Assembly (NCBI RefSeq): GCF_002216065.1
Contig: NZ_CP022282.1
Coordinates: 4,340,001-4,404,000, forward strand
Length of the DNA stretch: 64,000 bases
Source of the DNA: Chryseobacterium sp. T16E-39
GTDB taxonomy: Bacteria > Bacteroidota > Bacteroidia > Flavobacteriales > Weeksellaceae
Direction: 5' to 3'
The notes beneath the pieces were generated by a model. That model saw only the letters and a program-made list of their open reading frames with translations, did not search any database and was not told the DNA's origin. The translations under genes and the position numbers were made by a program. Positions 17,844 to 20,183 of this stretch are shown here, one piece after another; position 1 is the stretch's first letter; each line of letters begins with the position of its first letter.

Positions 17844-18398
17844 CTAATGATTGATTTTTCCTTCTTCTAATTGATACAGATCTGAAAGGTTTCTTCCCAA
17901 TTCATCATAATCTAATCCATAACCAAGAACAAATTTATTTGGAATTTCTTTTCCAATATAATCCAGTTTGAAATCTTTCTTATAAACTTCAGGCTTCAAT
18001 AAGAAAGAAGCTAGTTTTACTGATTTCGGACGCTGTGTTTCTTTGAAATACTTGAAAAGGCTTTCAACCGTATTTCCTGTATCTACAATATCTTCAACAA
18101 GAATGATGTGACGGTCTTTAACATCTTTCGTCAGTTCCATTTTTTGATAAACGATTCCTGTAGATTCTGTTCCTGCGTAAGAGCTCATTTGAATAAAAGC
18201 GATCTCACAGTTTCCCGGATAATGCTTTAAAAGATCTGAGAAGAACATGATAACTCCGTTCAAAACTCCTATGAAGACAGGAACTTCATCTTTGTAATCT
18301 TCATAAATTTTCAGCGCTGTGGCCTTTACTATTTCCTGAATTTCGGCGTCCTTTAGATAAGGAACAAAAGTTTTGTCGTGAACTTTAATGCTTTCCAT
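17844..18398 (-). CDS. hpt: Hypoxanthine phosphoribosyltransferase
   Basis: A 184-residue purine-salvage enzyme transferring phosphoribosyl from PRPP to hypoxanthine or guanine. The PRPP-binding loop is ILVEDIVDTGNTVESL (about residues 95-110). Other supports are the FIGVLNGVIMF segment near 42 and the C-terminal VLGYGLDYDELGRN block that contacts the base. Length is normal. It fits with adk downstream in nucleotide metabolism. Confidence 0.93.
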   Translation of the reverse strand: MESIKVHDKTFVPYLKDAEIQEIVKATALKIYEDYKDEVPVFIGVLNGVIMFFSDLLKHYPGNCEIAFIQMSSYAGTESTGIVYQKMELTKDVKDRHIILVEDIVDTGNTVESLFKYFKETQRPKSVKLASFLLKPEVYKKDFKLDYIGKEIPNKFVLGYGLDYDELGRNLSDLYQLEEGKINH

Positions 18399-18417
18399 AA
18401 AAATTTTTAGTAGTTGG

Positions 18418-18425
18418 CAAAGTTA
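18418..18425 (-). promoter_or_regulatory. -7 promoter box (TAACTTTG) of hpt
   Basis: The minus-strand TAACTTTG matches TAnnTTTG and lies 19 nt before the hpt start codon. Confidence 0.65.
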
Positions 18426-18478
18426 CGGTTTTTTGATTTTTCATTAAAATGTTTTTCTGTTTAATCCACTATTTGCAT

Positions 18479-18486
18479 TATATTTG
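18479..18486 (+). promoter_or_regulatory. -7 promoter box (TATATTTG) of the ABC-F gene
   Basis: TATATTTG matches the consensus and would give a leader of about 100 nt before the ATG at 18594. No TTG at good -33 spacing was found. Confidence 0.5.
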
Positions 18487-18512
18487 CATTCACAAAACCC
18501 AAAAATACGCAC

Positions 18513-18595
18513 ATGTAGGATATAATTTCTTTCAGATTTAATTTACAATAACTATTCTGGTTATTGATGTTTAACTTCAATTAGAAAGAAATTAT
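18513..18595 (+). promoter_or_regulatory. Structured leader with mini-ORFs before the ABC-F gene (candidate translational attenuator)
   Basis: The leader contains, in order: a start-stop ATG-TAG (18513-18518); a 12-nt arm ATAATTTCTTTC (18522-18533); a 7-bp hairpin (18546-18552 with 18560-18566); a five-codon ORF encoding MFNFN (18567-18584); and the perfectly complementary arm GAAAGAAATTAT (18584-18595), which covers the region before and including the first two bases of the ABC-F ATG. The outer stem would hide the start codon. The geometry is seen directly; regulation by ribosome occupancy is inferred from the known behaviour of ABC-F leaders. Confidence 0.6.
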
Positions 18596-20183
18596 GATTT
18601 TTCTACAAAATATATCCTATAGATTTCCCAACAGAGACCTTCTCTTTAATCATATCAATATAACGATCCCAACATCCTCAAAATCGGCTTTAGTCGGAAG
18701 TAATGGTATGGGCAAATCCACGTTGCTTAAATTAATTGCAAATGAAATTCAGCCTTTAGAGGGGAGTTTAAATATTCAGGGACACCTGTATTATGTTCCC
18801 CAGATGTTTGGGAACTTGAATCATCTTACCATCGCTGAATGTTTGAAAATTGACAAAAAACTCGAGGCTTTACATAAAATTTCCAATGGTGAAGTCGATG
18901 AAATTTATTTTGAAATCCTTAATGACGATTGGGACATCGAAGATCGGGGTCTCCAGGCATTGCATCACTGGAAGCTCGGTCATTTGGATTTAAACCAAAA
19001 ACTGGAAGGCTTAAGCGGAGGACAGAAGACAAAGGTTTTTCTTGCCGGAATACAAATCAATCAGCCGGATATCGTACTATTAGATGAACCCACCAATCAC
19101 CTTGATGTGGAAGGAAGGGATTTGTTATATGACTATATGGATAAAACGAATTCAACAGTGGTTATTGTAAGTCACGACAGGGTTTTATTAAATCAGGTCG
19201 ATACGATATACGAATTAAGTAATCAGGGCATTTCTACCTACGGAGGGAATTTTGATTTTTATACAGAAGAAAAGGAAGCAGAAGAGGAAGCACTCCATCA
19301 TGATATCCATGCCAAAGAGAGGGCTTTGAAAAAAGCAAAAGAGAAAGAACGGGAAACACTGGAAAGGAAACAAAAACTGGATGCCAGAGGAAAAAAGAAG
19401 CAGGAAAAATCGGGTGTGGCCAGAATAATGATGAATACACTTCGAAATAATGCCGAAAAGAATACTTCCAAATTAAAGAATGTCCATACCGAAAAGATCA
19501 ATGATATTTCCGGCGATCTTCGGGGACTGCGTTTGTCTGTGAAAAATACTGAGCAAATGAAAGTGAATTTTAATAATTCTAACCTTCATTCAGGAAAGAT
19601 TTTAATAAAGGCTGAGAATATTAATTTCAAATACAATGAAAAATTTCTTTGGCCGGCAGATCTTACTCTGGAAATCAGAAGTGGAGACCGTATTTCCATA
19701 AAAGGTTCTAATGGATCAGGAAAAACAACTTTGATTAAGCTTTTAATTGGAGCCCTGGAATCTTCCAAAGGTTCTATAGCAAGAACCGATTTTAATACAT
19801 TATATATTGATCAGGAGTATTCATTGATCGCCAGGGAAATAACAATTTATGAGTTTGCTCAAAAATTTAACGATCACGCATTGCAGGAATCGGAAGTGAA
19901 GACGATATTATCTAGATTTTTATTCGGAAAAGAAACCTGGGATAAAAAGGGGGAGATGTTAAGTGGAGGAGAACGTTTAAGACTTTTGCTCTGCGGACTT
20001 TCGATCAGTAATAAAGCTCCCGATGTTATTGTTCTGGATGAACCTACGAATAATTTAGATCTTCAAAATGTGGAAATTCTAACGAATTCTATTAAGGATT
20101 ATAAGGGAACACTCTTAGTAATTTCCCATGATGAAATTTTTCTGGAGGAGATCGGGATAGAAAAGGAGATTATTTTAGATTAA
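18594..20183 (+). CDS. ABC-F family ATP-binding protein
   Basis: A 529-residue soluble protein with two ABC domains and no membrane segment, the ABC-F architecture of ribosome-associated translation factors and antibiotic-resistance proteins. Domain 1 has Walker A GSNGMGKST, signature LSGGQKTK and DEPTNHLDVEGR. Domain 2 has GSNGSGKTT, LSGGERLRL and DEPTNNLDL. The interdomain linker (about residues 215-310) is highly charged and helical. Which subgroup it belongs to (housekeeping or resistance) cannot be settled by eye, but the leader before it resembles attenuators of inducible members. Confidence 0.9.
   Translation: MIFLQNISYRFPNRDLLFNHINITIPTSSKSALVGSNGMGKSTLLKLIANEIQPLEGSLNIQGHLYYVPQMFGNLNHLTIAECLKIDKKLEALHKISNGEVDEIYFEILNDDWDIEDRGLQALHHWKLGHLDLNQKLEGLSGGQKTKVFLAGIQINQPDIVLLDEPTNHLDVEGRDLLYDYMDKTNSTVVIVSHDRVLLNQVDTIYELSNQGISTYGGNFDFYTEEKEAEEEALHHDIHAKERALKKAKEKERETLERKQKLDARGKKKQEKSGVARIMMNTLRNNAEKNTSKLKNVHTEKINDISGDLRGLRLSVKNTEQMKVNFNNSNLHSGKILIKAENINFKYNEKFLWPADLTLEIRSGDRISIKGSNGSGKTTLIKLLIGALESSKGSIARTDFNTLYIDQEYSLIAREITIYEFAQKFNDHALQESEVKTILSRFLFGKETWDKKGEMLSGGERLRLLLCGLSISNKAPDVIVLDEPTNNLDLQNVEILTNSIKDYKGTLLVISHDEIFLEEIGIEKEIILD

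Follow-up and report, generated by a model that had tools for sequence, protein, structure and literature searches.

A start-stop reading frame and a predicted start-hiding fold conserved in the leaders of ABC-F genes of Bacteroidia

What can an ATG followed at once by a stop codon do in the leader of an ABC-F gene? The question is raised by a locus of Chryseobacterium sp. T16E-39, which lies in a stretch of 64,000 nucleotides (contig NZ_CP022282.1, positions 4,340,001 to 4,404,000 of the forward strand) that we call the window and within which all positions are counted. A 195-nt intergenic gap separates a divergent minus-strand gene (start 18398) from the ABC-F start at 18594. The gap contains an ATG-TAG, hereafter the start-stop, followed by a 12-bp stem with left arm ATAATTTCTTTC (18522-18533) and right arm GAAAGAAATTAT (18584-18595); the final two bases of the right arm are the AT of the ABC-F ATG (18594-18596). 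A preliminary description of the window, made from its letters, had pointed out these elements together with a hairpin and a five-codon open reading frame (ORF), and its coordinates for all of them are exact. In our reading, to which we assign a probability of about 0.72, the leader is a translational switch: a drug-stalled initiating ribosome on the start-stop would open the stem and free the ABC-F start, making the leader a one-codon attenuator of the vmlR/cplR type.

The leader within the genus

A leader query of 221 bases gave a BLAST match in 147 of the 173 genomes of the genus. Of 117 further primary matches, 116 were taken (the one in G136, which reaches a contig end, was left out), as were 3 secondary ones, and in all 149 genus stretches were aligned. 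ABC-F leaders make up 144 of them. Five stretches were excluded: L156 (genome G104) and L157 (G149) are leader remnants in genomes without an ABC-F match at 1e-60, and L158-L160 are weak secondary BLAST matches. Removal of L004, identical to L003, left alignment A1 of 143 distinct leaders.

A stop codon stands directly after the leader ATG in every one of the 144 leaders (TAG in 143, TAA in 1). Columns 18513-18517 are 100% conserved in the genus alignment; the preceding three bases are conserved at 62-78%. As a string, ATGTAG is no rarity: the 4.87 Mb genome has it 2201 times, both strands counted; judged by the alignment, what exceeds chance is its conservation, not its occurrence. The sole TAA row (L046) has TCT, not TCC, at ABC-F codon 8, by which a pair of helix H2 is preserved; this is a single event, and TCT is also found elsewhere.

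The fold that accompanies the start-stop comprises four nested helices, H1-H4 (Table 1). In A1, 96.3% of their cells are paired, vs 35.5-53.7% after a shift of the 3' partners by 1-3 columns. The real alignment was matched by 0 of 500 shuffles in percentage paired, in cells changed on both sides or in covariation score, although it should be noted that related sequences can exceed shuffles in this test. The stretch 18492-18650 folds with a z of -3.46, and 2 of 200 shuffles were equally stable. As a conserved unit the full 12-bp stem was rejected: a 9-bp core (18525-18533/18584-18592), which constitutes H3, is kept, and the outer three pairs are ill kept, forming in 97 (18522/18595), 101 (18523/18594) and 44 (18524/18593) of the 143 rows. 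The hairpin between the arms stands as described (H4) and accounts for the bulk of the covariation within the genus, where H3 is near-invariant, with C-G replaced by U-A in two rows. H1 is paired in 91.7% of cells, with C-G replaced by U-A in 6 rows; its swap test within the genus is weak (17.50 vs 17.24, sd 0.12, the top of 200 swaps being 17.57), so that the case for H1 is made by codon constraint and by a handful of rows with compensating changes. In the species of the window, 4 of the 6 H1 pairs form, which makes a weak helix, and H2 is lengthened to nine pairs (18516-18524/18611-18619).

The codon constraint lies at the very start of the ABC-F gene. Codons 2-12, the first eight informative columns, carry the strongest synonymous constraint (rank 1 of 375 windows) in 29 near-complete genes, the nearest of the 143, which also served for codon usage; per-codon counts refer to all 143. 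Isoleucine at codon 7 is encoded by ATA in 125 of 126 rows (ATA usage 0.18 in the 29 genes), serine at codon 8 by TCC in 121 and by TCT in 19 of 140, and glycine at codon 10 by GGG in 131 of 133 (usage 0.17). Because of this constraint the RNA fold appears to extend into codons 7-11, and in this genus the leader fold very likely reaches into the ABC-F gene, a part of the structure that the preliminary description had missed. Close relatives, in which it had proposed to look for loss of complementarity or of the mini-ORF, keep both the pairing and the start-stop.

Leader and gene were also compared for presence. Of the 26 genus genomes that gave no BLAST match to the leader, 24 were examined, together with the two genomes with remnants and two controls. 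No ABC-F match at 1e-60 was found in 24 of these 26 suspect genomes; in the two that have the gene (G097 and G098), a covariance model (CM) found the leader, with ATG-TAG. Leader and ABC-F gene appear to be absent together, which points to one dedicated gene. Of the two remnants, L157 has ATGCAG at the site of the start-stop, and the 5' half of L156 is unaligned.

The leader in other genera and families

With the CM, the leader was detected in 153 of the 296 genomes of the family, spread over 9 of 33 genera. Family matches outside the genus come from 27 genomes, of which 24 were taken (G244, G258 and G264 were left out); their leaders have ATG-TAA in 19 cases and ATG-TAG in 5, and one further home-family genus has ATG-TAA. 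In genus g35 (perhaps Flavobacterium), which belongs to a second family of the same order, all 11 leaders have ATG-TGA. A class-wide CM search matched 17 of 395 genomes, in 14 of 196 genera. The 12 new class loci comprise nine with an ATG-stop, one with GTG-TAG (L283), one with the three-codon ATG-AAG-CTA-TAA (L279) and one false match (L282); in another CM search 2 of 4 new matches were genuine, both with ATG-TGA. As leaders, L269, L270 and L282 were rejected, being false CM matches with no ABC-F gene.

All three stop codons are used while the ATG stays, which argues that a start followed by a stop is what selection maintains. A sensor specific to release factor 1 (RF1), an idea prompted by the 143 TAG codons of the genus, was dropped once TGA appeared in another family. 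By these comparisons the start-stop recurs in scattered families of the class and is not confined to flavobacteria, the group of which the preliminary description had spoken.

Genomes found through the protein are free of leader bias. Among 16 of them, nine have an ATG-stop, one has a candidate (L300), five have an upstream ORF (uORF) of 3-5 codons and one (L298) has none. The multi-codon uORFs read MKISK, MKK, MKM, MRINN and MKI, each followed by a stop, and additional short ORFs are carried by L300 and L303; Bacteroidales plasmid loci, inspected by eye, have MRIAA, MRI and MRITK, again each with a stop. These comparisons suggest that the ATG-stop prevails with the H3-type leader and that 3-5-codon M[K/R] uORFs take its place in some lineages. 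The 3-5-codon uORFs of L293, L294, L295, L290, L302 and L303 open with M-R-I or M-K-I, near the clostridial cplR consensus MR[I/M]. Genome G978 has two ABC-F copies with start-stop leaders (L278 and L289), of which L278 is seemingly broken, with no long ORF at the start; L271, a leader from family f90, closely resembles the Empedobacter type, which may reflect a recent transfer or a stray contig.

As read from alignments, the other family genera lack H1 and H2 and keep H3 together with a hairpin of very different sequence. In 22 leaders from 21 genera, H3 strands with their own partners have a mean of -10.9 kcal/mol, vs -8.0 (sd 0.4) with swapped partners, and 0 of 2000 derangements are as low; row by row, 19 of the 22 do better than over half of their swaps. 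Both arms of H3 are altered together in L277, L279, L268, L288 and L289. In 34 leaders from two families, 98.0% of H3 cells are paired, vs at most 68.0% when slid; one pair is changed on both sides (4 rows), and the covariation score is reached by 1 of 500 shuffles. That the stretch following the start-stop pairs with the one preceding the ABC-F start is thus indicated mainly by the wide cross-genus comparison, in which the stem co-varies.

The promoter speaks for the start-stop being transcribed. TAnnTTTG is the -7 promoter consensus of Bacteroidota. It is present in 142 of 143 genus leaders, 22 of 24 from other family genera, 11 of 11 from g35 and 11 of 13 in the remaining group, at a median of 25-26 nt ahead of the start-stop in all four groups. 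All distances are 22-29 nt except for one genus row at 53, and within the genus 141 of the 143 leaders have the box in that range. Because of the position of the box, the start-stop most likely lies within the transcript, about 20 nt from its predicted 5' end; a transcript start past 18535, the possibility that the preliminary description had set against its own proposal, is not indicated by this prediction. A perfect 10-nt direct repeat, TATTTGCATT, with a spacing of 11 nt, occurs at 18470-18490 and overlaps the box.

The start-stop as a proposed one-codon sensor

A ribosome with the leader ATG in its P site would have a footprint of roughly 18499-18529. The effect of such a ribosome was modelled in 84 leaders, including 36 of the 143 genus rows. 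With the footprint forced open, the ABC-F start became cheaper to open by more than 2 kcal/mol in 82 of the 84, vs 4 of 84 for a control block elsewhere in the leader, and the genus mean of this opening cost fell from 11.0 to 5.3 kcal/mol. In agreement with the preliminary description, in which a ribosome paused on the start-stop would free the ABC-F start, the model suggests a leader fold that hides this start and is incompatible with a ribosome on the start-stop.

The conserved start-stop, the conserved and co-varying helices and the one dedicated gene are shown by sequence comparison; we infer translation of the ATG, drug stalling there, a translational output and feedback. In the absence of drug, a ribosome starting at the ATG would meet the stop immediately and depart, and the RNA would fold, with H3 (and, in this genus, H1 and H2) keeping the ABC-F start closed. 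A drug that arrests the ribosome just after initiation, such as one of the pleuromutilin, lincosamide or streptogramin A type, would freeze it on the ATG. Of the 5' strands, the footprint would then cover that of H2, over half of H3's and the end of H1's, the segment ahead of 18594 would become free, and ABC-F protein would be made; once this protein had cleared the drug, the switch would close again. A leader peptide would be unnecessary, the sensor being a single codon. With no peptide in the sensor, the switch should not respond to drugs that require one.

Several observations weigh against this reading. Leaders found by sequence or CM are biased towards window-like ones, and some orthologues have 3-5-codon uORFs or none. 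Within the genus, H3 is A/U-rich and varies little, two of the five covariation measures (pair counts and pair types) are reached by 30 and 41 of 500 shuffles, and RNAalifold on A1 gave H4 and a small local hairpin, not H1-H3; H1-H3 therefore rest on counts over the named structure, on codon constraint and on the wider comparison. In that comparison, L273, L283 and L206 fail to beat half of their H3 swaps, and in the 34-leader test the count of pairs with changes is reached by 314 of 500 shuffles. The window protein scores below the NCBIfam cut-off for ribosomal protection (368.3 vs 380). Finally, the sequence of the vmlR uORF is described as crucial for efficient induction by lincomycin (PMC10201436), which is awkward for a peptide-free sensor; the vmlR uORF variants MDN, MDK and MRK are still inducible, according to a figure legend (PMC9226507). 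Here and below, cited papers are represented by excerpts, and what is said of them holds for those excerpts.

Could the start-stop instead be a general gauge of initiation and termination, responding to ribosome supply, release factor, recycling or starvation, with the ABC-F protein acting as a stress translation factor? A ribosome holding fMet in its P site and a stop codon in its A site could be sensitive to delays in release or recycling, and the argument from helices and ribosome model would be identical. However, the occurrence of all three stops implies no dependence on RF1 or release factor 2 (RF2) alone, and a patchy gene carried on Empedobacter plasmids with tet(X) or with floR, estT and aadS is unlike a housekeeping factor; we consider a general gauge unlikely. 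Counted from the first ATG to the last base of the ABC-F ATG, the interval is narrowly confined to 79-98 nt across 191 leaders (L217, L218, L253, L278 and L288 are outside the layout counts; L278 and L288 were added for the H3 swap test), which would also suit re-initiation or ribosome loading, in which ribosomes at the start-stop are passed to the ABC-F start with an efficiency set by the fold. In E. coli, AUGs that lie upstream and close to the 5' end can help ribosomes to bind at the start downstream (ptrB; PMC4965119), and termination-reinitiation at overlapping start-stop sites is known (PMC9841429). By itself, however, such a transfer leaves the co-varying stem between the start-stop segment and the ABC-F start unexplained, as well as H1 and H2, and it is in our opinion quite improbable.

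A structured RNA acting as a direct sensor of temperature or of a ligand, with ATGTAG kept as sequence and not as an ORF, would account for the four helices conserved in the genus, some of whose pairs are weak A-U ones, and for the AG of TAG that sits in H2. Against it, the unpaired ATGT is invariant, the stop switches between TAG, TAA and TGA where H2 is not kept, and the only Rfam match is at chance level, elsewhere and on the other strand; we give such a direct sensor very little credence indeed.

A more general form of the drug-stalled switch, in which the smallest possible ribosome sensor (a start codon and a stop) governs ABC-F protection genes in much of Bacteroidia, reports only drugs that freeze the ribosome after initiation, was reduced from 3-5-codon M[K/R] uORFs and travels on resistance plasmids, seems to us slightly more probable than its contrary.

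The closest known systems are leaders of other ABC-F genes. In vmlR of Bacillus subtilis, the uORF Met-Ile-Asn lies in a bulge of stem SL-1, and inducers are expected to arrest initiating ribosomes (PMC9226507); arrest at initiation is also the mode to which the cplR uORF is tied (PMC10201436). The present leader shares with that of vmlR the ABC-F gene, the very short uORF placed in a stem bulge, the proposed arrest of the initiating ribosome and the sequestered main ribosome-binding region (PMC9226507). The vmlR leader differs in its three codons, its Shine-Dalgarno sequence, its intrinsic terminator and the pausing of RNA polymerase (PMC9226507), whereas here there is one codon, no terminator was found and the uORF segment pairs directly with the main start. 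For cplR, translational attenuation suffices for repression and the terminator adds to it (PMC10201436). The consensus uORFs are MR[I/M] for cplR, MK[L/Q] for VmlR2 and MAGN for LsaA (PMC10201436), and some of the Bacteroidia uORFs (MRI, MKL, MKK and MKI, each with a stop) come near those of cplR and VmlR2; the known ones have three or more codons, and that of cplR a terminator, whereas the leaders described here mostly have an ATG-stop. By analogy, the start-stop may be seen as the limit of the vmlR/cplR series of uORFs, and we file it as a variant of these and not as a peptide attenuator.

The tetQ leader encodes a three-residue leader peptide, and its target gene is unrelated to ABC-F. It resembles the present leader in belonging to Bacteroidota (Bacteroides, CTnDOT), in serving a ribosomal-protection gene and in acting as an attenuator on translation (PMC5418344). 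At the toiL uORF of E. coli topAI, tetracycline and retapamulin likewise act at the start codon and open a downstream start, but this uORF is longer, senses several drugs at several codons, serves a toxin gene and involves a Rho-dependent step (PMC12121999). Start-stop sites of E. coli (AUGUGA/GUGUGA, narQ) also have a start codon followed by a stop that influences a downstream start; they differ in their overlapping starts and in correcting frameshifts, with no leader stem and no drug sensing (PMC9841429). The msrD leader (MsrDL, MYLIFM) shares the ABC-F gene, stalling at the stop codon and suppression by its own product, but needs a nascent peptide plus a macrolide and acts through a terminator (PMC10314930).

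No start-stop uORF ahead of an ABC-F gene was found in the literature searched, as represented by excerpts, which is not proof of its absence in print. The tool uORF4u has a default minimum of nine nucleotides and uses a Shine-Dalgarno search in prokaryotes (PMC10219788), so one-codon leaders could be overlooked, and the phylum lacks Shine-Dalgarno sequences (PMC6847099). The conserved start-stop and start-hiding fold in many families suggest a very small ribosome-based drug sensor. If the drug-stalled switch is real, a stalled ribosome can sense an antibiotic without a leader peptide, and sensing through initiation arrest is separated from peptide-dependent sensing; a mode of control would also be suggested for resistance-type ABC-F genes in a phylum without Shine-Dalgarno sequences.

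The ABC-F gene and remaining features of the locus

The window protein is an ABC-F protein. Against the ribosomal-protection-like NCBIfam profile NF000355 it scores 368.3 bits, slightly below the cut-off of 380; relatives from Empedobacter (390.9) and Parabacteroides (392.9) are over it and one from Bacteroides (374.7) is under. The closest relatives in the PDB are ExpZ, PoxtA and Uup. A review of ABC-F proteins and their subfamilies (PMC6723617) reads patchy presence within genera as a mark of resistance ABC-F proteins. The nearest named carriers of the gene are eight Chryseobacterium loci (76-86% protein identity), all eight with an ATG-TAG 80-84 nt before the gene. In the class the gene is patchy, a protein search having matched 8 of 198 genomes. 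Three Empedobacter plasmids have a 61% identical ABC-F copy; the two small ones that were examined (L291 and L292) carry tet(X) in one case and estT, floR and aadS in the other, both with ATG-TAA in the leader. From the Empedobacter relative over the cut-off, the plasmid company and the patchy presence, the gene is likely of the resistance type.

Table 1. Features of the ABC-F locus, in positions of the window
Feature	Position	Strand	Remarks
Bacteroidota-type -7 promoter box TATATTTG	18479..18486	+	TAnnTTTG; predicted transcript start a few nt downstream
Helix H1, 5' strand (AAACCC)	18495..18500	+	partner is ABC-F codons 10-11; this genus only
Start-stop ORF, ATG-TAG	18513..18518	+	ATG-TAR in 144/144 genus leaders; outside the genus the stop is TAA, TAG or TGA
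Helix H2, 5' strand (AGGAT)	18517..18521	+	partner is ABC-F codons 7-9; this genus only; 96.2% of cells paired
Helix H3, 5' strand ATTTCTTTC	18525..18533	+	core of the left arm of the 12-bp stem; 98.5% of cells paired; co-varies across genera
Helix H4, hairpin 5' strand	18546..18552	+	97.5% of cells paired; both sides changed in 5 of 7 pairs
Helix H4, hairpin 3' strand	18560..18566	+	pairs with 18546-18552
Five-codon ORF (ATG...TAG)	18567..18584	+	not conserved, probably without function
Helix H3, 3' strand GAAAGAAAT	18584..18592	+	one base ahead of the ABC-F start
ABC-F ATPase, 529 aa, ribosomal-protection-like	18594..20183	+	NCBIfam profile and PDB relatives
Helix H2, 3' strand	18614..18618	+	within ABC-F codons 7-9
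Helix H1, 3' strand	18621..18626	+	ABC-F codons 10-11; GGG bias at codon 10

Three further candidates were set aside. An intrinsic terminator in the leader was rejected, as a simple consensus scan of 18390-18720 gave 0 terminator-like sites. Membership in a known Rfam family was rejected as well, the search of 18380-18800 having given one match only, at chance level, upstream and on the other strand. For a second copy of the leader in the window's genome there was only a weak overlapping match on the opposite strand (E 0.46).

The five-codon ORF, which the preliminary description had listed among the parts of the leader, was rejected as a conserved part: of the 149 rows, 27 have ATG and 50 have GTG where it starts, and most of the remainder have no start codon there. 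Between the hairpin and the right arm, the motif TTTAAC (18570-18575), for which no conserved pairing partner was seen by eye, is kept at 78-99% per base in the genus.

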